A DNA stretch of 59,756 nucleotides from an uncultured Verrucomicrobiota bacterium (GTDB taxonomy: Bacteria; Verrucomicrobiota; Verrucomicrobiia; Verrucomicrobiales; DEV007), in contig CABXDI010000004.1 in NCBI GenBank assembly GCA_902510815.1, positions 1 to 59,756 on the forward strand, read 5' to 3'. This document shows positions 6,242 through 30,863 of this stretch, one piece after another (within the stretch, counting starts at the first letter, position 1; each line of letters begins with the position of its first letter). A program made the position numbers and the translations under genes. Below the pieces are notes generated by a model. The model had not been told where the DNA came from and did no database searches. It saw only the letters and a program-made list of their open reading frames with translations.

Positions 6242-7045
6242 TTATTCAGAGATTGCATCCAACTCTTGAAACTTTTTAAGCCTCGATTTTAATGCCTTAA
6301 TTTCAATAGCTTGCGCACTTTCAGAGTGTAGCATTAAAAAGCTTTCAATGAGTTCCAAAGCTACATCAAATTGGGCTTGGTCTACTTTACGGTTAATCGC
6401 AGCAGTCAAGGCCTCAACACTGTCATCAGCTCTAAAATTAACATCATCAATGAAGACCTCCCCAGATCCTCCTTCGATAGCGCCAGTCACAAATCGAAAA
6501 AGTAATTTCACTGATCGAACATTATCCGGAATTTCAACATCAGGCACTACTATTTCTTGCCACTCACCGACTTTACCACTGAACTGCTTGAATCCTGTAC
6601 CTTCCATTTTTTGCTCATCTTCATTAAACCATTCAATAAAATATTGTTGAATGTAACCACCTGAACCTTTTTTCATTTGTTTAACAAAAAAAGTGAACTC
6701 ATAATTTAGAGCGCTCAAAAACTTACCGTTTACTGTTTTTATAATATGGGCTTCGCTAGGAGTTTTGCCTACATTTTGAAGATTAATGTATGCACTATAA
6801 GATCCCGAATTTGCATCAGAGCCTGATTTTATAGGTGGTTGACTACTGGTAAAAACCCAACCTTCCGCATCATCATTCTGACCTTCTTCAAAGCTAGAAT
6901 TATAAATTATTGAAGAAACCTTTGGGGTGCTTTTAGCAGTATTAAACTCGTCAGCTGAAAGCATTCCAAGAAATAATGAGCCCATCAATACAAATGAAAC
7001 ATTGAAAAAAATCCTCTTCATTGATTTATCATTTCGATTTATCAT
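6242..7045 (-). CDS. Secreted protein with a CBM4/9-like carbohydrate-binding domain
   Basis: 267 residues. A signal peptide (hydrophobic residues about 10-30, ending near MLSA-DE) is followed by a jelly-roll domain (about 45-210) with the hallmarks of the CBM4/9 class: IIYNSSFEEG at the start, GSYSAYINL, a conserved Trp in KVGEWQEIVVP, and the terminal GEVFIDDVNF strand that closes this fold. The last 55 residues form a helical segment (AINRKVDQAQFDVALELIESFL) resembling a single TPR-like hairpin. The start lies 12 bp after the stop of the 3428-residue CotH/lamin-tail gene, so the two are probably co-transcribed and may work together at the cell surface. Sugar specificity cannot be predicted. 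An alternative start is Met8. Confidence 0.7.
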   Translation of the reverse strand: MINRNDKSMKRIFFNVSFVLMGSLFLGMLSADEFNTAKSTPKVSSIIYNSSFEEGQNDDAEGWVFTSSQPPIKSGSDANSGSYSAYINLQNVGKTPSEAHIIKTVNGKFLSALNYEFTFFVKQMKKGSGGYIQQYFIEWFNEDEQKMEGTGFKQFSGKVGEWQEIVVPDVEIPDNVRSVKLLFRFVTGAIEGGSGEVFIDDVNFRADDSVEALTAAINRKVDQAQFDVALELIESFLMLHSESAQAIEIKALKSRLKKFQELDAISE

Positions 7046-7057
7046 AATTGAATCAAC

Positions 7058-10000
7058 TTAATCAACTGTTATTCTCATAAAACGGATTCTTGAACTATCA
7101 TTATCTTTAAAATCAAATTGTAAACCAGCTCTGACAGTTTGCATTATATCACCCTCTGAAATTACCTGATAAGTTACTTCGTCGGGAGCATACCTCCAAT
7201 TAGAAAGGTCATCTGAAATCTGAACTCTGACCTTATAATCACCTAATGATTTTAAAATTGTATATGTTAAAAATAGACCATCATCATCTCTTGTTGCCTT
7301 AGGAAACAAATTCTTCGGATCTTGATTCAGAGGATCTAGAGCAAAAATATATTCTAGAAGATTTGAAACTCCATCCTGGTCAGGGTCATCAATAACACTT
7401 GTTTGACCTTGAATTTCTCCACCAAATTGCTCTATAACCCATTTCCCGTAGCCATCATTAATTTTGGGGGTAAAGATACTCCAACTATCGTAAACTCCCC
7501 AACTCATTATTGAAGCAGAGGGATCAACTATAATAAGAGAAGAGCCTTGCCCATCCGTTTGAGGATACCAACTATCGTCGTATTCAAAATCAAGCACTCC
7601 AGCAGAAATTGAAGACAACTCTAGGCGAATTCTTTCACCACCATTATCAAGCTTACCACTGTATTCCCCTAATACATTAGTAATTTCAGCATTTTCAGAA
7701 AGAAAACTTTCAATATTTCTAACCACATAAACCGACTGACCTGGTTCAAGAGTCGATTCAGGGAATTCATAATTAATTCCTTCAACAAAGCGTAAATCAC
7801 CAAGAGGAATTATTTCATCTCCTATGTTCTCTAATTTAATGTATTCACCGTCTGTACCTGAAAGAGGATTATACATTATCTCAGTTATTCTAAGACTCTG
7901 GATTATCTTTTGTTCTTCAACTAGATCAGACTCATTGGAGTATCCTGGTGTAGGTAATTGAAAAGAAGTTAAAATATTATTACCATCACTAACTCTACCT
8001 CGAGATATATCATCTAATGAATTAGAATAATCAATTCGGTCAATTTCATTCAAGTCGACATCAAAAAGACCTATCTCATCCTGAATTTTGGAAAGAGAAA
8101 AGTTGAGATGTGGTGAACCTTGATTCAAATCATTGTCTGCAATATATTTGATGAACCCTTTCGCATCAATATAACTCAGTTGAGGAATAATATACTTTCT
8201 TGGAAAATTATTAGGGTCATCACTTAAAGACATTCCTCCAAGATGAACAGGATAATTATAATGATTATATAGCTCTAAAAAATCATTATCAAAAACAACA
8301 CCACTACTTGATAACCATTCATTAATTACTATACCCTCACTGGATGCAATCGGAAGCTTTGAACTATTAGCCGAACCTGGAGTAGGTAGCATTAAAGCAA
8401 ATTCACCATACCTTCCATACCTTCCAATAGACTTGTCTATGAGCTGACTGCCAAACTCAATACTATCAACTAATTTTCCTCCATTTTGAAGTGATTCAAA
8501 AAGAGAAATAAATTCGCCATCACGATCTAAACCAAAACCAGTATGCAGGCCAGAGGTACCATCTACATCATTAGCATATATAGTCAGAAATTCATTCGGA
8601 CCAATAACAGTTCCAGCTGGAAATTGAAAACCAGTACTGATATCATTATCTTGAGAAATAACCATGCCTGAAAGAACTCTTGGAGAATCACTATCATTCC
8701 ATAATTCGATGTAATCAGGAAAGGTTTCCTCGTGATTAAATGATCCTTGGTTGTCTGCAAGAATCTCGTTAATGACTAACTTAGAAGCACTTTTATCAAC
8801 AACCCACGTTTTTGACCTTGTCGCATTTTCCTGCCATTTTCCTGCAGAATTTTTACCTATCACTTCAACATAATGAGAACCCTCTGTTAATTGCTCAAGT
8901 TTTATTGGCTGATCAATTTCCACAGGCTCTGACCACTCTTGATTATCTAATCTCCAACGATACTCAGCAGTGAAAACAGCGTTATCTTGGATGCCTGAAA
9001 TACCAGGAATATAAACACTAATTTGTGCATTATCTTTCCGAGTTATTGCATTGGGCTCTCCACTAATTGCTGCACCATAAGAAACATTCCAACCCATATC
9101 AAGACCATTAACACCTGATCCAACAGCAGGTGATCCATTACTAACGGAAAAGTTTAAAGAGGCTAGATCATTAAACAAAGGTTCACTTGAAATATTCCCT
9201 TGGCCAAGGTTTGTATTTTCTTCAGGAAGAATGTTTTTTTCAGCAATTATCTCTGGATCATTTTCTTGCCCTTCTGAAAATTGATGCGCAAATAAAGGTG
9301 CATCTAAATCAAATATATTACCACGAACAGAGATCTTTCGACCTGGAACAACGCCACCTCTTAATGGCTCGTCAAAACTAATCGAAGCAACGCCAACACG
9401 CACAACAGTGTTATTTTCGAAAATAGCATCACTATTATTTTTAAGAAGTAATGCATGGTCAACATCATAGAAAAGATTCCTAATCACAGTGAGGTGAGCA
9501 TCATTATCGGTAGCAATAGCCGCCGCACTACTCTCTCTGTTTGGATCATCTTTATGGACATTAAAAAATTTATTTCCCTCGATATGTGCATCAATTCCAT
9601 CAAAATCCAAACAATCATCAGTACTACCAAAGAAAGTATTATTGATAACATAAATAATTGGTCCAGGTCTCCTGCCACCAGAAAAATCAATTATGTCATT
9701 GTAACCGGAAGATATACCAAAAGAATTTCCTGAAAGGTTAAAGAAATCATTACCATCAAGGTTTTCACCATGTATAGCCTCTTCGCCAGAGGTAGACGGA
9801 AAATTGCAATTAATTACATCTACTTGAGGATGGCTTAGTTCAAGTATTGTTTTGTCCGTCCCTGTCCAAGTTACTTCTTCTAGATGAAGTTTAGAACTCG
9901 ATATACTAATAGATTGGTCACCGCCATCAGATCTATTTTGTATGAAATTTGATAATTTATTATCTTGTAAAGTTTCTTCAAAATATATCCCTTCCCAACC

Positions 10001-13000
10001 TCTTGAGGAATTAGGTGCACTAGTAAATGTAATCGGGTTAAAATCCGCTCCTTCAGCTAATAGCCTCCCCTTTACGGTCATCCTTGAACCCTCTGAAAAA
10101 TAAACAGTCACACCCGGTTCAATCATTAAATTAAAACCCGAGGGAACTTCATAATTTCCATCAATAAGATATGGGCCACCTTCAAGACTCCAGATTGTAT
10201 CTCCTTCAATTGGCTGAGCAGGATTAATTTTTTCAGTATCATACCAAATTGGCACTAACTCAGAACCTATCACATTTCCTTTTGAGTCAACAGCTTCAAC
10301 CGTCACTTGGTTGACCCCAGGTGACATTAAAGGAACAGGGCCAAGTCCTAATAATTCTAAATCAAAACTAATATCTCGACTGCTAGGACTCCTTTGATGC
10401 ACTTCTACAGCAATAATATTATTTTCATTTTGTAAAGATTCTGGACTAATGTTGAAGCTTTGAAAAGTTGCGTTCCTTACAGTGTCAGTAGCCAAGCTTA
10501 AGTAATTTGCATCAAGCTCTAAATTCTCTCGAACCAACTCTTCACCATTTAGATAAACCGCTGCTCCGTCATCATAGAGCAATTCAAGTCGAAAACTAGC
10601 AAATCTATCAGCATCGATTACATCAAAACTCTTCCTAAAATAAGTAGTTATATGCTTATTATCCGGATCACCCCCAAAGGATAAAGTGGTCACTTCTCCT
10701 CTATCACCATAACCCATTTCAGTTCTGGCTATTTTCCAGCTAGAATCATCAAAGTCTGAATCGCGCCATAATATACCCTGATCAGTACCATCATCTAAAT
10801 ATTTCCATTCTGAACCAGCAGATAAAACCACCTGAGATTCTGCCAAATCTCCATCCCATATACCATCTCTCCTATTGAGCGGAACCGATACACCATTAAC
10901 TCTTATCTCGGCAGTAACCTCAGGATCAAAAGTTCCCTCCAAACCTGTTAGCCGCTGATCAGTCGTTCTTGCAAAACCATTCGAACTATTTAGTGAGCTC
11001 TGTGCAGAAAATTGCCCTGATATTTGAGAAAGAATGAATAATCTACGGTCATCCATAAAATCTATAATATCATCCGAAATGTCACTATCCTCGGGAAGCC
11101 AGTTTAAAGAATTTTTAACAATAGCATCAAATCTGTCCTTAGAAAAAACCGTTCTCAAAAGCTCATCAATATTTTTATAATAAAGTCTTAGAATCGTTGG
11201 CTCGTTAAAGAACTCATTCAACTGCGGCATCGTTTGACCTCCAAAATTTGTAATCGCTGGAAAAATTGAATCATCAGGATCCGTATCCGTATCTCCGAGT
11301 CCAAAAATTGTATCAAAATCATGAGGAATTAATTTAAAGCGCTCGTCTACCAAGCCTCTGTACAATTTATAATCATCATCAGTTCCATTAGATAGATTAG
11401 TTTCTCGGCTAAGAACAATAGTCATGAAGGCAAACCATCGAGTCCATTGCTCAACATCTATAACTTCAGAAACACCTTGAAAGTATTCATCACTAGAAGT
11501 GTTATTCATAACCCTCATGAAACGGTGTAAGTCAGACCAATCATCAAATGATTCATTCGATCCTTTTGACCAACCATCAGAACGATAACGATTAGAATCT
11601 GGCCCTAGGGTCTCAGTTGATCTAATAGACCATTTCACATCAGGCCTCGCCTTGGAATAAATATTACCTCCTGAATCATTTGGGTAATGGTCATCCGCCC
11701 ACTTACCATCGATAGCTTCAACATGAAGATACGAACCATATCGACGCTCATTATCATTATCATTTGCTCTATTGACACCATTGTACCTCAACTGAACTGG
11801 TCTCGCTGATGCCGCCTCAATTCCTGACAAATTCGCTAAACGAGACCCTAAAAGTTGAAGATAAATATATTGGCTATTTAAATTAATCTTGGTCGTTCCA
11901 TTCAAAGGATTATCACGTGGAATATTAAGGCGGTTGTTTCGTGGATTCCTCGTTCTACTTCCAGCCCCTCTAACTCTAACTCCACATTGGTATCGTATTT
12001 CGTAGCCTTCCCCCTGCCTTACTATTAAAGTTGCATTCTTCTGCGCATCACTAGAACTATTGAAATTCCGAAAACGAAAATCTCTATCCTCTTCAACTGT
12101 CATAACAAGTCTGTAAACCGGCTGTTCCCCCAAAAAGTTCTCATCATCGAATTGAAACAACGCATTGGCGCCTTTTTCATTTTCTCCAACATTTGGCCAT
12201 CTTCTAATAGAATCACCTGTGCCTGATGTAATGAAAAACTCAATCACTGTTTCATTATCTTGGGCCGGAACTACGGCACTAAAAATACTATCGTCTGATT
12301 TAAGGTCGCCATTAGCACCTTGATCTTCCATTATGGACTCAATAAAATCACCGGGGTCTGAAGTCGAAACTCTCCAATATAATTTAGCACCTAAACTCGA
12401 ATCTTTGGCTCCTTTTAGTTTAGTACTTACAACTACCTCTTGACCAGAACGCGGCACAGGAGGGTAATGTTTGACCTCCAAAATAAGAGGGGTATTTAGA
12501 GTTGATGGAATGTTATTTTTATCACCAGGGGTTGGGGAATTACTAGAAATCCAATTCTGTCCGTGCTTATTAGAAATATCAATGTTTGCCAATTGCAGTG
12601 ATGCTCCTTCACCATCAGTCGGTGTACTCCATTTCCACCCAGATTCATCTCTGAGCACACCAGAGTCGTCCTCTGGCACTCTAATAGCCCAATCACCTTG
12701 ATCAGAATATGTTACATCATCAACTTCATCACCAAGCGCATCTTTAATTCTTATCCTTTCTCCGCTATTACTTAATCGCCCTTGCCAAGGACCTATCAAA
12801 TTATCAACTGCACCGTAAACAGATACAAATTTTTCAGGATTTGCAGCGACCACGTAATACTCACCGGGAAGAATACTAACTTCTGGAAATTCAAAATTTA
12901 CCCCTGAACTAAATGTCCAACCCTGCATAGGCACAGGACCTGATCCTATATTGTGTAATTCAATGAATTCCTCAGATGGATCACCTGAAGAAGAATTATA

Positions 13001-16000
13001 CATAATCTCAGTGATAATAACTGTATTGTCCGGACCGCCGATTTCTAATTCCACAGTAGCAATATTAGAAACCTTACCATTAGCTATAGAATTGTATTTA
13101 AAGGAATCTTTTCCGGCAAAATTTTCTGCAGGAGTGTAATCAAAAGAGCCGTCAGCATTTAAGTTAAGTATGCCCTGCCCTAAATATTCAACTAAGTTCG
13201 CCTCAGCTAAATCACCTTCAATGTCTTGGTCATTTGTAAGAACTCCTTTGTCAGATGGAATACTAATAGATTGACCTATCAATACAAAAAAATCATCATC
13301 CTTAGCAACCGGAGCGTCATCTACATCAATAATATAAATCTGACATTGAACTGGTATTGAGTTTTGATAACCATCATGAAGGGCAAATTCAAAAACGTCA
13401 AATCCACTATAATTAGCCTCTGGAGCATATACAAAACTTCCATCATTGGAAAGTGAAAGCACTCCATGCTGAGGCTCACTAATAAGAACTACACTCAAAT
13501 CATCTTGCTCCTCGTCTATACTTTTAGAAATTAAACCAAATTCTACATCTCTCTCCAAAACGGAATCCTCATAAACTACATAACGTTTAATCTTTGCTAA
13601 TGGAGGAGCATTCACACGAATCGTAACTTTAGCAGGATCAGAGGTAAATTCACCGTCCGACACTTCATAATTGAAATTTACCAAACCAGAAAAATCTGGA
13701 TCAGGTGAAAAAATTAACTCACCATCTTCTTTTTCATTTAGCTGTCCTGATTCAGTTTCTGATAAAATTTTTACACTTAATTCATCTCCGTCTGGATCCA
13801 AATCATTTGAAATCAATTCTGCGATATTTATAGAAAATTCACTATCAGGCGGAGTTAAATAATAATCTTCGATTGCAACTGGGGGATCATTTACAGGTAA
13901 TACATTAATAGTTGCGATCACATAAGGTGCCTCACCTGATAAATCAGCAACACGATAAGTAAATTGATCCTGACCAGAAAAATTTTTATTTGGTATATAA
14001 ATAAAAGACCCATCTTCTGAGAAACTAAGCGAGCCGTTTTGTGGATCAGAATTTAAAATGGCGGAAATATCAACACCGTCCGGATCATAATCATTTTCAA
14101 GGACACCATCCCCAGCATCAACTTGAAGCAAAGTATCCTCTGAGGTCTGAAATTTCTCTCCAAAAGATATTGGCAGATCATTAGAGCCAGCTTCAACTAA
14201 TATAAAAACTTTACCATCGTCCGAATACTCACCATCTGATAAAGTGTATTCGAAAGTGTCATCTCCTTCATAATTTAAATTCGGTATATAGCTGAAGCTA
14301 CCATCTTCATTTAGTTCAAGTTTCCCATGTTCCGGTGGAACAAGTAAGGAGACTTTTAAGTCATCATTATCAGCGTCTACGTCATTACTCAAAATTGAAA
14401 CTCCTTTACTAAGGGTCGCAGTTAAACGCATATCAAACCCTAAATCAGAACTCGTGCTACTTGTTTGATGCACTTCGACTGCTACAAGGTTATCTCCATC
14501 AATTAGTACTGAGGGGTCGACATCAAACTCAAAGTAAGTCAACTCATCTGCTTCACCTACGACTTCTATAGAAACATCTTCGAAGCCTGCATCAGGAACT
14601 AAATTTGAACGAACCACCTCCTCACCATTAATGTAAACAGCAGCTCCATCATCTCTAAGCAAACCAATTTGTAGCGACTCAATCTTTTCCAGATCATCCA
14701 CTTCAAACCAGTGTCTAAAATAAGTAGTTATGTGTTTTTCATCATCGTTATCACCATAACTTATAATTGTTGAGACATTGTCATCTCCATAACCCAACTT
14801 GGCGCTTCCAACGCTCCATACATCATCATTATAATCAATCTCTTTCCATGCATTACCGAGATCTGAACCATTATCTGAATATAACCAATCGGATCCAGTA
14901 CTAACCAAATCAAAATTTGAAGATTTAAAATACCTTAACTCAAAGCTATCCATCGCCCAAGATGCATCATCTCCTCCTTGCCACCCCGGACCACTAGCAA
15001 ATATCTCAATAATTAAAGAGTCAGAACTATGAGGTATATCTTTTAAACTAGGCTCATTTCTTAAATCATATGCAGAATCTAGGAAATTGACACCAGAGGA
15101 AAATCCTAAGTCTAAATTTCTTGCTATCTCAACTCCATCAGATGGAATAAAACTCTGAGAATTCGGTAACCCACTATTGCTAAAAGTATGAGAAAAAACA
15201 GTAGAACCATCAACCGATATTGAAAAAATATCGCCTTCCCAAGAATCAATTATAGCAAGAACAAAACCCAATGAAATTCTATCATGGGGCGGAAGGTTTT
15301 CTATAGTTATGGTCGTTGATTCTGCAGGGTTCCCAGATGTGCTGTTTCTCAAAAACTGCCCCTCAAAACCATTAATTGAAGAAAATTGATCCGTCGATTC
15401 AATTTCAACATTACCTGAGAACTCAAAACCTACAACATTATCAAAATTTTCTTGTAGTATTAGTTTGGGAACTGAATTTGAAAACTGCGAAACTAGCAAA
15501 GTAGTATTTTCAGTAATCAAAAAGTTATCATCTAATGCGACTGGAGAATCATTAACAGGAGACACTTCAATTTTTACCTCTGAAGGCAATGAAAAGTCCT
15601 CACCATCTGAAGCTAAATAACTAAATGCATCAATACCGCTAAAGTTTTCTGCAGGAGTATAATTAAAGCTTCCGTCTGAATTAATAGTTACTGCCCCATT
15701 CGCAGGCTGCGTTCCTATAGAGTACTTTAAAGACTGACCTTCAACGTCAGAACCAGTCAGTTCAAGCGATGAACCCAATGCAATTTCCAAATTTTGATCT
15801 TCTATAATGGAAAATGAACGGTCCGCTATTTGAGGAAGATCATTAACCGATTCTACATTAATAGTCACTAAAGCTGGATCACTGCGCCCCGAGTTATCAA
15901 CTATACGGTAAGAGAACTCATCAACACCATAAAAATCTAGTTCTGGCAAATAGGTAAACGTCCCGTCGTCATTCATTGATAAGGTGCCATGGGAAGGATT

Positions 16001-17344
16001 ACTATCCACTTCAGCAACTGATGACGGGTTATCAAAGACATCATTTTCCAGCACCCCTGACCGTGATCCACCCCCAGAATAATTAATAACTATATCATCA
16101 AACCAAACGTCCGTAAGTTCATTGCCACTATTGGCTCTGTTATTATAAACCCCGAAATCAATGACATGATCTCCTGCGTCCAATGAAACCTTTGTGCTAA
16201 AAGTTTGCCATCCAGTATCGGACTGACCTTCTCCTGTAAGCCTATCAATTTCGTCACCTCCGTCACCAATAAAGTCACCATCAATAGCGAATATTACAGC
16301 CCCATATTCATCATCTTCATAATTCTCTGAAACGACTAGTCTGTATTTAAAAGAAATTTCCAACTCAGAGCTATCTTCTAGGAAAACATTTTTTCTCCAT
16401 GCACCTGCAGACGTAACAGGCCCAAAGAACCATCCTCCACCTACACGAATATATGCAGCATTTGTTCCGTCTACACCAACACCTTGTCCAATATTTCCAT
16501 TAGCATTGTTGGGCGCTGTCGTAGCAAAAGGACCATCAAATGGGTCGTCAACATAACCAAAAGAGTTTGACCCACCTCCACCGTTTAATAGGGGTGAAAT
16601 ATTTAAATCAAATCCAACATCACTACTAGTATTTCCTGCTTGGTGTAATTCTACCGCAATTTGATTATCTCCAACAATCAGCAAACCCTCTAAATCAACC
16701 CGTGCAGATATGTAATTAGCTTCATCATTTACTCCAGCAATCGCAGGAGTTAAAGTAGTAATGATTCCTTCTGGAATTGCTGGGGAACGGAAAACTTCTT
16801 CTTCATTAATGTAAACAATAATTCCATCGTCTGCCAAATAATTGATTTCCCAATCTGATAATCGCGCTTCCTTTTCATCCAGTGAAAACTGATTTCTAAA
16901 CAAGTAAGTTGTAACTAAGTTTTCTCCGTTGTCTGCCTCATCAATTCCAAAGAGTTCATTATCAAGACCAGGAAATGCATCAATAGTTCCTGACTGAATA
17001 GGGATGGGTGCAACAAACCATGGTCCTACATTTGAGGAATCAATATCAAAGTTAGGAGCAATCCAAATGTTGCCAGATGCATCAGTTGGATAATCCTCTG
17101 AATCCCCATTTTCATTTTCTAAGCGATCTAAAATTTGCCAATTATCTTTAATGAAACCTGGCGCACTTTCCTCATCGAAAGAAACCTGGAGAATAGGTCC
17201 AGTTCCTGTCTTTAGTTCAGAATCTTCTGATATCTGATAATTATCATCAACAGCCTCGGACTGAGCCCTCAGTAACTTAGAGGGATTAGCATAAAGTAAG
17301 AAAAAAATAACGGTTACTATAGGCTTATGATATTTATAGAGCAT
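7058..17344 (-). CDS. Giant secreted multidomain protein (cadherin-like, lamin-tail, CotH, beta-helix)
   Basis: 3428 residues with a signal peptide (1-28). In order: a jelly-roll-like module (about 145-252), a LamG/CBM-like stretch, two cadherin-like (Big_9 type) repeats (430-600, e.g. HGTLSMNDDGTFTYLP), a second jelly-roll segment (600-980), about five more cadherin-like repeats (980-1440), a lamin-tail domain (about 1441-1545, ITEIMYNSSSGDPSEEFIEL), a CotH kinase-like domain (about 1690-2130) with the DxD signature at Asp2009/Asp2011 (HDFDTIFG), a third jelly-roll (2171-2340), a right-handed parallel beta-helix (2370-2750), three further lamin-tail domains (2848-2968, 3000-3098, 3151-3235) and a C-terminal DPDQDGVSNLLEY segment (about 3318 on) that recurs at the end of Verrucomicrobia exported proteins. 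It has no obvious membrane anchor. Likely a surface or extracellular adhesin/scaffold; CotH domains elsewhere are atypical protein kinases, so phosphotransfer is possible but unproven. Confidence 0.9.
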   Translation of the reverse strand: MLYKYHKPIVTVIFFLLYANPSKLLRAQSEAVDDNYQISEDSELKTGTGPILQVSFDEESAPGFIKDNWQILDRLENENGDSEDYPTDASGNIWIAPNFDIDSSNVGPWFVAPIPIQSGTIDAFPGLDNELFGIDEADNGENLVTTYLFRNQFSLDEKEARLSDWEINYLADDGIIVYINEEEVFRSPAIPEGIITTLTPAIAGVNDEANYISARVDLEGLLIVGDNQIAVELHQAGNTSSDVGFDLNISPLLNGGGGSNSFGYVDDPFDGPFATTAPNNANGNIGQGVGVDGTNAAYIRVGGGWFFGPVTSAGAWRKNVFLEDSSELEISFKYRLVVSENYEDDEYGAVIFAIDGDFIGDGGDEIDRLTGEGQSDTGWQTFSTKVSLDAGDHVIDFGVYNNRANSGNELTDVWFDDIVINYSGGGSRSGVLENDVFDNPSSVAEVDSNPSHGTLSMNDDGTFTYLPELDFYGVDEFSYRIVDNSGRSDPALVTINVESVNDLPQIADRSFSIIEDQNLEIALGSSLELTGSDVEGQSLKYSIGTQPANGAVTINSDGSFNYTPAENFSGIDAFSYLASDGEDFSLPSEVKIEVSPVNDSPVALDDNFLITENTTLLVSQFSNSVPKLILQENFDNVVGFEFSGNVEIESTDQFSSINGFEGQFLRNSTSGNPAESTTITIENLPPHDRISLGFVLAIIDSWEGDIFSISVDGSTVFSHTFSNSGLPNSQSFIPSDGVEIARNLDLGFSSGVNFLDSAYDLRNEPSLKDIPHSSDSLIIEIFASGPGWQGGDDASWAMDSFELRYFKSSNFDLVSTGSDWLYSDNGSDLGNAWKEIDYNDDVWSVGSAKLGYGDDNVSTIISYGDNDDEKHITTYFRHWFEVDDLEKIESLQIGLLRDDGAAVYINGEEVVRSNLVPDAGFEDVSIEVVGEADELTYFEFDVDPSVLIDGDNLVAVEVHQTSSTSSDLGFDMRLTATLSKGVSILSNDVDADNDDLKVSLLVPPEHGKLELNEDGSFSYIPNLNYEGDDTFEYTLSDGEYSDDGKVFILVEAGSNDLPISFGEKFQTSEDTLLQVDAGDGVLENDYDPDGVDISAILNSDPQNGSLSFSEDGSFIYIPNKNFSGQDQFTYRVADLSGEAPYVIATINVLPVNDPPVAIEDYYLTPPDSEFSINIAELISNDLDPDGDELSVKILSETESGQLNEKEDGELIFSPDPDFSGLVNFNYEVSDGEFTSDPAKVTIRVNAPPLAKIKRYVVYEDSVLERDVEFGLISKSIDEEQDDLSVVLISEPQHGVLSLSNDGSFVYAPEANYSGFDVFEFALHDGYQNSIPVQCQIYIIDVDDAPVAKDDDFFVLIGQSISIPSDKGVLTNDQDIEGDLAEANLVEYLGQGILNLNADGSFDYTPAENFAGKDSFKYNSIANGKVSNIATVELEIGGPDNTVIITEIMYNSSSGDPSEEFIELHNIGSGPVPMQGWTFSSGVNFEFPEVSILPGEYYVVAANPEKFVSVYGAVDNLIGPWQGRLSNSGERIRIKDALGDEVDDVTYSDQGDWAIRVPEDDSGVLRDESGWKWSTPTDGEGASLQLANIDISNKHGQNWISSNSPTPGDKNNIPSTLNTPLILEVKHYPPVPRSGQEVVVSTKLKGAKDSSLGAKLYWRVSTSDPGDFIESIMEDQGANGDLKSDDSIFSAVVPAQDNETVIEFFITSGTGDSIRRWPNVGENEKGANALFQFDDENFLGEQPVYRLVMTVEEDRDFRFRNFNSSSDAQKNATLIVRQGEGYEIRYQCGVRVRGAGSRTRNPRNNRLNIPRDNPLNGTTKINLNSQYIYLQLLGSRLANLSGIEAASARPVQLRYNGVNRANDNDNERRYGSYLHVEAIDGKWADDHYPNDSGGNIYSKARPDVKWSIRSTETLGPDSNRYRSDGWSKGSNESFDDWSDLHRFMRVMNNTSSDEYFQGVSEVIDVEQWTRWFAFMTIVLSRETNLSNGTDDDYKLYRGLVDERFKLIPHDFDTIFGLGDTDTDPDDSIFPAITNFGGQTMPQLNEFFNEPTILRLYYKNIDELLRTVFSKDRFDAIVKNSLNWLPEDSDISDDIIDFMDDRRLFILSQISGQFSAQSSLNSSNGFARTTDQRLTGLEGTFDPEVTAEIRVNGVSVPLNRRDGIWDGDLAESQVVLSAGSEWKYLDDGTDQGILWRDSDFDDSSWKIARTEMGYGDRGEVTTLSFGGDPDNKHITTYFRKSFDVIDADRFASFRLELLYDDGAAVYLNGEELVRENLELDANYLSLATDTVRNATFQSFNISPESLQNENNIIAVEVHQRSPSSRDISFDLELLGLGPVPLMSPGVNQVTVEAVDSKGNVIGSELVPIWYDTEKINPAQPIEGDTIWSLEGGPYLIDGNYEVPSGFNLMIEPGVTVYFSEGSRMTVKGRLLAEGADFNPITFTSAPNSSRGWEGIYFEETLQDNKLSNFIQNRSDGGDQSISISSSKLHLEEVTWTGTDKTILELSHPQVDVINCNFPSTSGEEAIHGENLDGNDFFNLSGNSFGISSGYNDIIDFSGGRRPGPIIYVINNTFFGSTDDCLDFDGIDAHIEGNKFFNVHKDDPNRESSAAAIATDNDAHLTVIRNLFYDVDHALLLKNNSDAIFENNTVVRVGVASISFDEPLRGGVVPGRKISVRGNIFDLDAPLFAHQFSEGQENDPEIIAEKNILPEENTNLGQGNISSEPLFNDLASLNFSVSNGSPAVGSGVNGLDMGWNVSYGAAISGEPNAITRKDNAQISVYIPGISGIQDNAVFTAEYRWRLDNQEWSEPVEIDQPIKLEQLTEGSHYVEVIGKNSAGKWQENATRSKTWVVDKSASKLVINEILADNQGSFNHEETFPDYIELWNDSDSPRVLSGMVISQDNDISTGFQFPAGTVIGPNEFLTIYANDVDGTSGLHTGFGLDRDGEFISLFESLQNGGKLVDSIEFGSQLIDKSIGRYGRYGEFALMLPTPGSANSSKLPIASSEGIVINEWLSSSGVVFDNDFLELYNHYNYPVHLGGMSLSDDPNNFPRKYIIPQLSYIDAKGFIKYIADNDLNQGSPHLNFSLSKIQDEIGLFDVDLNEIDRIDYSNSLDDISRGRVSDGNNILTSFQLPTPGYSNESDLVEEQKIIQSLRITEIMYNPLSGTDGEYIKLENIGDEIIPLGDLRFVEGINYEFPESTLEPGQSVYVVRNIESFLSENAEITNVLGEYSGKLDNGGERIRLELSSISAGVLDFEYDDSWYPQTDGQGSSLIIVDPSASIMSWGVYDSWSIFTPKINDGYGKWVIEQFGGEIQGQTSVIDDPDQDGVSNLLEYIFALDPLNQDPKNLFPKATRDDDGLFLTYTILKSLGDYKVRVQISDDLSNWRYAPDEVTYQVISEGDIMQTVRAGLQFDFKDNDSSRIRFMRITVD
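10330..10830 (-). repeat. Third copy of the jelly-roll-like module in the giant protein
   Basis: Encodes residues around 2171-2340 with GSEWKYLDDGTDQG, HITTYFRKSF, DDGAAVYLNGEELVREN and AVEVHQRSPSS. It matches the copy at 14410-14910 nearly motif for motif, and short stretches are similar at DNA level, suggesting duplication inside the gene. Confidence 0.75.
14410..14910 (-). repeat. Second copy of the jelly-roll-like module in the giant protein
   Basis: Encodes residues around 811-980 with GSDWLYSDNGSDLG, HITTYFRHWFEV, DDGAAVYINGEEVVRSN and AVEVHQTSSTSSDLGFD. This motif series is usual in exported proteins that also carry lamin-tail and CotH domains; its ligand is unknown. Confidence 0.75.
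16580..16915 (-). repeat. First, shorter copy of the jelly-roll-like module in the giant protein
   Basis: Encodes residues around 144-255 with TTYLFRNQFSL, DDGIIVYINEEEVFRS and AVELHQAGNTSSDVGFD. It is more diverged than the other two copies and its leading Trp-containing part is replaced by a different segment. Confidence 0.65.
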
Positions 17345-28785: not shown

Positions 28786-29727
28786 ATGTGGAATACACTA
28801 ACTATCATCTCAATTTTATTAGTAATTGGAGCAGCCTCTATTCGCTTCGTAACGACCAAAAACTTAGAGCATGAAAGAGCGGCTCTACAACTTACAATAA
28901 CAAACGCCAAAGCCGCTGAAGATCGTCAAACAGATATTCAAGAGGCAAAAGCCACTACAGACACTCAGACTAAAGAAACCGATACTGCTGCTGCAACACA
29001 AGAGGGAGAAGAAGCGAAGAAAAAAAATGAGGAGACAGATAAGACTGCAAAAAAAGGAACGCTAGAAGGACAGCTCAAAGTAGCACAGCAAAAGTTAGAT
29101 AAACTCAACAAGGATCTAGCAGAGATCGGAGAGATTGAGGATCTTGTTGAAAAGAGCCAGAACCTTCAAGCTGAAATGGCGGCTGTTCAGCAAGAGATTG
29201 CAATTACAAAAGAAAATTATAAAAACGCGGTTTCTAAAAGAGAAGCGACTGACAGCACGATTGCAAATTTTCGCGATAAAGTTTCTCGCCAGCGTGCAGG
29301 GCAGATGGTTGAAGTTAACGCTAAAATTGCACAAACATTTGATAACTGGGGCTTTGTTGTAATTAACGCAGGTGGAAATCAAGGCATCAACGCAAGAGTA
29401 AAGCTTGATGTAAAGAGAGACGATAAAATCATTGGTAAACTTACCATAACCAATCTGGAGCCTAACGTTAGTGTTTGTGATGTCACTTCTTTAAATGATG
29501 GTGAAAAGATTGCTGTTGGCGACGCCGTAGTTCTCAGCGCTGAGAGTAAATGGGATCCTAACAAAAAACCTATTGTTGAAATAGTACCTGCTGCGGCAGC
29601 TCCCGCACCTGCTACAGAAAAACCTGCAGAAAAACCTGCAGAAGAAGACGATCCGTTTGGTCTTGGTGGTGATAAAGAACCAGAGCCTGAAGAACCTAAA
29701 GCTGAAGAAGATCCATTTGGTCTTTAA
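28786..29727 (+). CDS. Membrane-anchored coiled-coil protein with C-terminal beta-domain (paralogue 1)
   Basis: 313 residues; no named family recognised. An N-terminal hydrophobic segment (about 3-21) anchors it with the rest probably periplasmic. Residues about 25-175 are Ala/Lys/Glu-rich heptads (long coiled coil). Residues about 175-260 form a beta-rich domain with NWGFVVINAGGNQGINARVKL and KRDDKIIGKLTI, resembling small beta-barrels of the FlgT-C/MreC kind by pattern only. The acidic Pro-rich tail contains a near-perfect repeat AEKPAEKPAEE and two DPFGL motifs, the second at the very C-terminus. The next gene encodes a protein with the same layout, and a lipoprotein gene follows, suggesting an envelope-spanning complex. 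Confidence 0.75.
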   Translation: MWNTLTIISILLVIGAASIRFVTTKNLEHERAALQLTITNAKAAEDRQTDIQEAKATTDTQTKETDTAAATQEGEEAKKKNEETDKTAKKGTLEGQLKVAQQKLDKLNKDLAEIGEIEDLVEKSQNLQAEMAAVQQEIAITKENYKNAVSKREATDSTIANFRDKVSRQRAGQMVEVNAKIAQTFDNWGFVVINAGGNQGINARVKLDVKRDDKIIGKLTITNLEPNVSVCDVTSLNDGEKIAVGDAVVLSAESKWDPNKKPIVEIVPAAAAPAPATEKPAEKPAEEDDPFGLGGDKEPEPEEPKAEEDPFGL

Positions 29728-29770
29728 TAAGTTAAGATTTAATAAATCAAATAATCAATTTAGAATTAAA

Positions 29771-29779
29771 CACCCCTCA
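29771..29779 (+). promoter_or_regulatory. CACCCCTCA leader element, copy 2
   Basis: Identical 9-mer to 28761-28769 and at nearly the same distance (15 bp) from the ATG. A TAGAAT (29761-29766) sits just upstream and could be a -10 element, so the two paralogous genes may each have their own promoter. Confidence 0.3.
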
Positions 29780-29794
29780 AACTAAAATCATTTC

Positions 29795-30589
29795 ATGAAA
29801 ATTAAAATCCCACTGATCCTCGCTGCCTTAGCAATTATTGTTTCAGTCATCTTTGGCGTGCAAAACCGCGGTGAACTAAAATCAAACAGACTCGAGCGAA
29901 TAGGTCTTAATAATGAGATCAACACAACCCTAGGGGAAATAACTGATAATGATTTTCCTGCACTATATGCATCATATGATGCACTATATGTTCAAGAAAC
30001 CCGATTAGAAGATTCAAAGGCAAAGACTGCAGGTCATAATGTTAACATCGAAAGACTCGATAATGAGATCTCTGGTCTCAACACACAAAAAGCACCTATC
30101 GATAAGGAAATTGCCAAAGCTGAGAACGCAGTTAAAGAAATTAGCAAAAAATTTCCAGGAACAACATTACAAACTATTGCTCCTACCATCAAAAAATTAG
30201 AAAGTGATTTAGAAAGCGCAAGACAAGACCTTGCGACTAAAAAAGCCGAACTTGATGTAGTTAGTAAAAAAGTTGCTGCTAACGAGGTTAGAATTGAAAA
30301 AGCTGAGAAAGTTCAAGCCGACAGACTATCAAGTATTGAAAGAAACTCTTCCGAAGGTGTTATAACAGCAGTTAATGAAGACTGGGGATTTGTACTTGTT
30401 AACATTGGAAAAGATCAAGGAGTTCAAGGAGACTCAGAGCTCATCGTCAAACGTGACGGCATTAGAATCGGAAACCTAAATGTTGTTTCTATTCAGCCTG
30501 GAATCACTGTTGCTGACATCAATCAAAAAGGTCTCAGCGGATCAGTTGAGCCAGGCGACAGAGTGATCTTCCAAAATCTAGGCGAATAA
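29795..30589 (+). CDS. Membrane-anchored coiled-coil protein with C-terminal beta-domain (paralogue 2)
   Basis: 264 residues with the same plan as the preceding protein: an N-terminal membrane segment (about 5-22, PLILAALAIIVSVIFGV), a long coiled coil (about 25-180) and a C-terminal beta-domain. The beta-domain aligns with paralogue 1: EDWGFVLVNIGKDQGVQGDSEL against DNWGFVVINAGGNQGINARVKL, then KRDGIRIGNLNV against KRDDKIIGKLTI, then GDRVIF against GDAVVL. It lacks the acidic DPFGL tail. 67 bp separate it from paralogue 1 and 17 bp from the lipoprotein gene. Function unknown; the pair looks like an old tandem duplication that has specialised. Confidence 0.75.
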   Translation: MKIKIPLILAALAIIVSVIFGVQNRGELKSNRLERIGLNNEINTTLGEITDNDFPALYASYDALYVQETRLEDSKAKTAGHNVNIERLDNEISGLNTQKAPIDKEIAKAENAVKEISKKFPGTTLQTIAPTIKKLESDLESARQDLATKKAELDVVSKKVAANEVRIEKAEKVQADRLSSIERNSSEGVITAVNEDWGFVLVNIGKDQGVQGDSELIVKRDGIRIGNLNVVSIQPGITVADINQKGLSGSVEPGDRVIFQNLGE

Positions 30590-30606
30590 GATCTCTAAAT
30601 AATCTA

Positions 30607-30810
30607 ATGACCACAGAAAATATTTTCAGACTAATTATAAGTGCAGTTTCTGCAATTATATTGGTTATTAGTTTTGTTGGCTGCGAAGCCACTGAAGTCG
30701 GTAATTGGGATGGATCAGGAGTTGATAGCGGACTAAGTAATTTACCTCAAGCTCGACACGAAGCCTGGGAAAGCAATGCTAGATACGGAAATTTACCCCA
30801 ATCTCGATAG
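30607..30810 (+). CDS. Small putative lipoprotein
   Basis: 67 residues. A hydrophobic segment (about 8-25) ends in ISFVGC, a plausible though not perfect lipobox, so the mature lipoprotein would be about 42 residues starting at Cys26. The C-terminus carries a duplicated NLPQ[A/S]R motif (SNLPQARHEA and GNLPQSR at the end). I recognise no family. It is the last gene of the three-gene envelope operon, 17 bp after paralogue 2, and is followed by a strong hairpin terminator, which supports it being a real gene. Confidence 0.65.
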   Translation: MTTENIFRLIISAVSAIILVISFVGCEATEVGNWDGSGVDSGLSNLPQARHEAWESNARYGNLPQSR

Positions 30811-30831: not shown

Positions 30832-30863
30832 AAAAAAGCACACCATTATGGTGTGCTTTTTTT
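30832..30863. terminator. Strong bidirectional rho-independent terminator
   Basis: A perfect 13-bp stem (AAAAAAGCACACC with GGTGTGCTTTTTT) closes a 5-nt ATTAT loop and ends in a T-run on both strands. It lies between the plus-strand lipoprotein gene and minus-strand frr, so it can stop transcription from both sides. Confidence 0.9.

Follow-up and report, generated by a model that had tools for sequence, protein, structure and literature searches.

Two adjacent genes, B and C, constitute a module that, judging from profile searches, is phylum-wide in the sampled Verrucomicrobiota, a wider distribution than the initial annotation had supposed, and that probably links or builds layers of the cell envelope. 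B is predicted to be a membrane-anchored stalk ending in a small beta-barrel, and C is a small lipoprotein with a conserved tail. On phylogenetic grounds B plus C is the ancestral unit and the preceding gene, A, is an order-level duplicate that arose by one tandem duplication. The component types (stalk, barrel, lipoprotein) are known; their combination and phylum-wide spread appear to be undescribed. The joining of membranes and wall has been little studied in Verrucomicrobiota, a phylum that includes the gut bacterium Akkermansia, and the tail motif of C together with the B-C pairing provides a clear target for direct testing. According to PMC12283558, V. spinosum, in which 100 essential proteins are of unknown function, has been mapped for essential genes by transposon insertion and is open to targeted mutagenesis. 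In the window, by which we mean the whole 59,756-nucleotide stretch of DNA analyzed, the features of the locus are as follows:

28,786-29,727, + strand: gene A (313 aa), encoding an N-terminal membrane helix, a helical stalk, a beta-barrel domain and an acidic, proline-rich tail (ORF; alignment of 23 relatives; single clade in the tree)
29,314-29,547, + strand: beta-barrel domain of A (profile A4, E 8.0e-26)
29,572-29,724, + strand: tail of A, with two DPFG motifs at 29,650-29,661 and 29,710-29,721 (sequence; alignment of relatives)
29,795-30,589, + strand: gene B (264 aa), encoding a membrane helix, a two-part helical stalk with a hinge and a beta-barrel domain (ORF; alignment; AlphaFold2 model)
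30,335-30,580, + strand: beta-barrel domain of B, with a predicted FlgT_C/F1-N-barrel-like fold (profile A4; model of the domain alone, pTM 0.76; fold searches)
30,607-30,810, + strand: gene C (67 aa), encoding a small lipoprotein (ORF; profile A5, E 7.2e-16; 49-sequence alignment)
30,682-30,684, + strand: codon of the lipobox cysteine C26 (invariant in 49/49 aligned C proteins)
30,736-30,771, + strand: conserved tail motif of C, SNLPQARHEAWE, with the phylum consensus S-x-x-P-W-N-x-P-x-x-W-E (one proline, P47, invariant; W54 and E55 each in at least 90% of the 49 sequences)
30,832-30,862, + strand: intrinsic terminator ending the unit (terminator scan; 14 pairs, then T-rich DNA)

The paralogy of A and B and their shared motifs [N/D]WGFV-[V/I]N-G--QG and KRD--IG-L, both proposed in the initial annotation, are borne out by the alignments and by a search of B against its own genome in which A came out as the second-best match (E 5.7e-12). 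Both proteins begin with a hydrophobic helix (Kyte-Doolittle 19-residue maximum of 2.15 for A and 2.55 for B, at residue 5 in each), and these membrane helices, together with the lipobox of C, support the envelope topology that had been ascribed to all three proteins. A maximum-likelihood tree with 66 sequences and a midpoint root resolves A (22 sequences), B (21) and the single-copy proteins (23) as one group each and unites A and B with support of 100/99, the long branches A_L103 and S_L118 being less surely placed; one tandem duplication in an ancestor of the order would thus explain the pair. The closest named relatives are Verrucomicrobiales, B being 87% identical in AH-601-G14 and NAT181. 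DPFG motifs in the tail of A number two here and several more in some relatives, and are absent from others; possibly, these repeats constitute a second docking peptide. A third barrel paralog, D, is found away from the A-B locus in many genomes (e.g., L120-L125, L131 and L135), mostly with a shorter stalk of about 100-160 residues and, in some cases, apparently with a signal peptide and no membrane anchor.

An AlphaFold2 model of B built from 24 sequences (pLDDT 86) consists of a helix spanning residues 4-119, a break at residues 120-127 around the conserved G122, a second helix at residues 128-185 and strands at residues 187-259; its pTM of only 0.39 makes it unreliable as to how stalk and barrel lie relative to each other. 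Where a long single coil had been proposed for both A and B, the model thus retains a long helical stalk for B but divides it into two helices. The barrel, a domain of about 80 residues that was also modelled alone, is predicted to adopt an FlgT_C/F1-N-barrel-like fold. Its best structural match is FlgT (PDB 3w1e), with Foldseek E values of 2.5e-4 for the whole of B and 7.4e-4 for the domain alone and a VIA Z of 10.6-11.3 over 76-82 residues. The N-terminal barrels of F1/V-ATPases follow within one Z unit of FlgT, and MreC lower; since the F1-ATPase barrels score nearly as well as FlgT, the fold alone is not specific.

PMC7693769 describes FlgT as a ring protein in the periplasm, at the base of the Vibrio flagellum. 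B resembles it in barrel fold and periplasmic location but lacks its N and middle domains and has instead a membrane helix and stalk. At the sequence level, the barrel of B scores 14.2 bits (E 0.062) against FlgT_C (PF16538), below the cut-off of 27 bits; the same model reaches 7 of 22 barrel domains at E ≤ 1, the best (E 0.0082) being below threshold, and in a genome search its above-cut-off matches lie at other places while B itself is hit below threshold in two cases (G231 and G210). The earlier mention of FlgT was thus apt as to structure, but the sequence stays short of the family cut-off. Searches of A, B and C against Pfam, NCBIfam and PHROGs returned coiled-coil and signal-peptide noise and FlgT_C and MreC matches below cut-off, in support of the view that no described family fits, and searches of PDB sequences with two barrel profiles yielded nothing significant. 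No publication on this module was found in the open-access literature, supplements excluded, although it may be in print.

In 121 of 129 B-type proteins, the stalk between membrane helix and barrel has a median length of 161 residues, with 153 and 178 as the limits of the 10-90% range; the remaining eight read 292-315 residues, that of L136 perhaps because of a wrong start. We rejected this constancy as proof of a spacer or ruler, MreC stalks being equally constant in a control set of 19 class genomes (median 90, cv 0.046, versus a cv of 0.073 for B). Stalks of about 292-315 residues, nearly twice 161 and as if doubled, are found in the deep lineages L129, L132, L133, L134, L139, L171 and L177.

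All genome surveys of A, B and C covered Verrucomicrobiota genomes. Within the family of the window, B was found at E ≤ 0.01 in 69 of 74 genomes and in 41 of the 41 that are at least 90% complete, and in most genomes of the family the second match of the search, directly upstream, was A. A barrel profile built from 22 domains of this same family (A4; E ≤ 1e-3) gave matches in 140 of the 141 order genomes, in 210 of the 237 class genomes and in 143 of the 240 genomes sampled from the phylum. A wider profile (A7; 49 domains; E ≤ 0.01), applied to the same samples as the profile of C, matched 132/141 class and 140/174 phylum genomes. The profile of C (A5), searched against whole genomes, was derived from 49 C proteins picked for their position after B, which favors copies so placed; at E ≤ 0.01 it matched 139/141 class and 171/174 phylum genomes. 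Because this model is short and the matches weaker than 1e-4 (nine in the class and twelve in the phylum, by eye) may cover the lipobox only, the safe counts are the lower ones obtained at E ≤ 1e-4, namely 130/141 and 159/174. The presence of C in almost every sampled member of the phylum, genomes of 0.9 Mb included, makes it likely that this protein, for which there is no family name, has a basic function.

C lies directly 3' of B or, in other orders, of the single barrel protein. Of the 130 genomes of the class in which C was matched at E ≤ 1e-4, a scripted comparison of coordinates puts C downstream of the barrel, in the same orientation and at a distance of -13 to 568 bp (median, 41 bp), in 114, and four further adjacent pairs recognized by eye (G289, G270, G274 and G123) raise the count to at least 118. 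The other 12 comprise one unlinked case (G248, with B and C on separate contigs), ten genomes with no or a weak barrel match, among which G278 likely has a diverged B, and G276, which was left out. Pairing extends outside the class to L126-L129, L138, L168, L169, L171-L176, L178 and L179. In 15 genomes devoid of an A4 match, a count that leaves out five further genomes already having one, a diverged membrane-helix/stalk/barrel protein directly precedes C in five according to the profile and in a sixth by eye, and no barrel protein precedes it in nine. As far as gene order is a guide, C predicts B, and a check for scattering of the genes among relatives came out negative.

The lipobox of C (FVG-C26) implies a mature protein of 42 residues. 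In part of family f2 (L084-L099) the tail is altered, PWNKP being kept and WE lost. Aspartate occupies position +2 after the lipobox cysteine in 3 of 118 C proteins, a signal for the inner membrane in enterobacteria that may not hold in this phylum. Some relatives (L040, at 6881-7259; L084; L086) carry a tandem pair of C-like lipoproteins after B, the second with a weaker motif.

C is also kept where B is missing. All nine class genomes without an A7 barrel match retain it. In the two 0.9-Mb genomes (L180 and L181) the order is argH, perR, C, glycosyltransferase, ruvC and lipB (names assigned by eye) with B missing, an arrangement resembling the surroundings of B-C in L109 and L115. B is absent from several f17 genomes too, and C comes there after a gene for glucose-6-phosphate isomerase. 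Altogether, C without B at the usual place was seen in L180, L181, L182-L184, L190, L193 and L194. Retention of C where B has been lost argues for a role of C that does not need B, and such independence makes a second partner likely, be it an outer-membrane machine or the wall.

A mechanism can be proposed on these grounds. B, and its duplicate A, would be anchored in the inner membrane, from which a hinged helical stalk would extend into the periplasm and present the small FlgT_C-like barrel at its tip. C would undergo export and lipidation and most likely end up in the outer membrane, where its short flexible linker would carry the conserved tail so as to dock on the barrel or on an adjacent outer-membrane machine. 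The two membranes could thereby be kept or drawn together across the cell wall. We consider a trans-envelope link of this kind, in which the barrel of an inner-membrane stalk meets the tail of an outer-membrane lipoprotein, to be quite possible, if somewhat short of probable. In its favor we counted the adjacency of B and C, the 3 of 118 C proteins with aspartate at +2, the stalk length, the role of FlgT in a periplasmic ring and the M23 peptidase gene found upstream in 7 of 38 loci. Against a simple tether we counted the unlinked genes of G248, the equally constant length of MreC stalks and, as the strongest objection and the one that set our estimate, the retention of C without B. Other proteins carry a Pal/OmpA domain (PF00691) in 57 of 57 class genomes, indicating that a tether already exists. 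The suggestion in the initial annotation that the locus tethers the inner and outer membranes or peptidoglycan is no more than a proposal, given this finding and the survival of C without B. The more specific proposal that C is a phylum-defining outer-membrane lipoprotein with a PWN-WE docking tail, B its inner-membrane stalk and A an addition by duplication in one order, together making up an undescribed membrane coupling beside Pal, OmpA, Lpp and OmpM, is tentative and, in our estimation, doubtful.

C may alternatively assist an outer-membrane assembly machine (the LPS translocon or Bam) as an LptM-like accessory peptide, lipid-anchored and with a brief conserved segment that would plug into a barrel protein, B serving as a dispensable link to the inner membrane. 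That C outlives B suggests that its essential partner may be other than B, and C, as LptM is described in PMC10567701, is a short lipoprotein with one conserved peptide. The likeness to LptM (YifL), a small outer-membrane lipoprotein of E. coli with a very short mature form, appears confined in sequence to the lipobox region: the LptM model NF047847 weakly matches 4 of 49 C proteins (best E 0.0016), probably via the signal peptide, no LptM family match was obtained for C of the window, and LptM is conserved at its mature start whereas C is conserved at its tail. Of 126 loci, 5 have a glycosyltransferase-9-like gene after C in the same orientation, as do both 0.9-Mb genomes, and GT9 is a family of the LPS heptosyltransferase type, but this association with C is local. 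As C is paired with B, and as that adjacency would go unexplained if B were unimportant, we regard this alternative as unlikely. Regulation of peptidoglycan hydrolysis, with A and B gating a LytM/M23 peptidase in the manner of the hinged coiled-coil protein EnvC and C marking the outer-membrane side, would accommodate the helix-hinge-helix predicted for B and the upstream gene already mentioned, which encodes a membrane-anchored M23 peptidase with HxxxD and HxH (by eye) in 7 of the 38 loci with enough DNA, six of them in the family of the window and one in another order (L108). Considering that there is no M23 match in the other 31 loci or in the window's own neighbourhood, and that the LytM domain of EnvC does not resemble the B barrel, such a function is quite improbable.

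The third candidate is a morphogenesis scaffold, A and B being MreC-like proteins that either belong to the MreC family or replace it. They share with MreC the succession of membrane helix, coil and C-terminal beta domain; MreC (2j5u) ranks 27th (E 0.03) in the fold search with the barrel, 3 of 42 B proteins are hit by PF04085 (best E 0.0012), and eight of eight genomes sampled from genus g19 (G074, G081, G085, G087, G090, G093, G096 and G099) have an A-B barrel pair and no MreC match. A separate true MreC is nevertheless above cut-off in 47 of 57 genomes, including that of the window (G000:C41, E 2.4e-28), PF04085 does not appear among the matches listed for either A or B in the window, and B has one small barrel of about 80 residues, as opposed to a 147-position MreC core, and no adjoining mreB. 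B as MreC itself was rejected, the genome having its own MreC elsewhere and B falling short of the PF04085 core; the broader scaffold reading is very unlikely. 

C was also compared with lipoproteins known or proposed to join envelope layers. It gave no Pfam match at E ≤ 10, and PF00691 was absent among the matches listed for A and B. The Braun lipoprotein Lpp is likewise small and attaches covalently to the wall by its C-terminal lysine, whereas C of the window ends in QSR and, among the listed C proteins, only L149, L160 and L161 end in lysine. A lipoprotein of Methylacidiphilum (WP_009060351/MFUM_0397) with a C-terminal part restricted to Verrucomicrobiota has been proposed to link outer membrane and peptidoglycan (PMC10260701). 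As presented in that article, it has 139 residues, another signal peptide and a location beside amylase and galT genes, not B; its identity with C was rejected on this gene context.

The three genes and the closing terminator lie where the initial annotation had placed them, as confirmed by the ORFs and a terminator scan. All three are on the + strand with intergenic gaps of 67 bp (A-B) and 17 bp (B-C), and this spacing, together with their conservation, is suggestive of a single transcript. The window contains 8 terminator-like sites, compared to 1.7 +/- 1.3 in shuffled sequences, and the one at 30,832-30,862 has the longest stem. Comparison with L034 yielded a dN/dS of 0.07 for B, dS being saturated for A and C. 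By eye, the neighbours of the locus include a gene resembling rRNA methyltransferases and genes of the frr/pyrH type; across relatives, neighbouring genes are mostly housekeeping or lineage-specific and give little clue to function, in a comparison where some of the largest ORFs called at G+C-rich loci lie antisense and are spurious, for which reason cluster 14 was left out. Elsewhere in the window, positions 7058-17344 of the - strand hold an ORF of 3428 residues in which cadherin-like stretches and further repeats can be made out by eye, probably encoding a giant surface protein.
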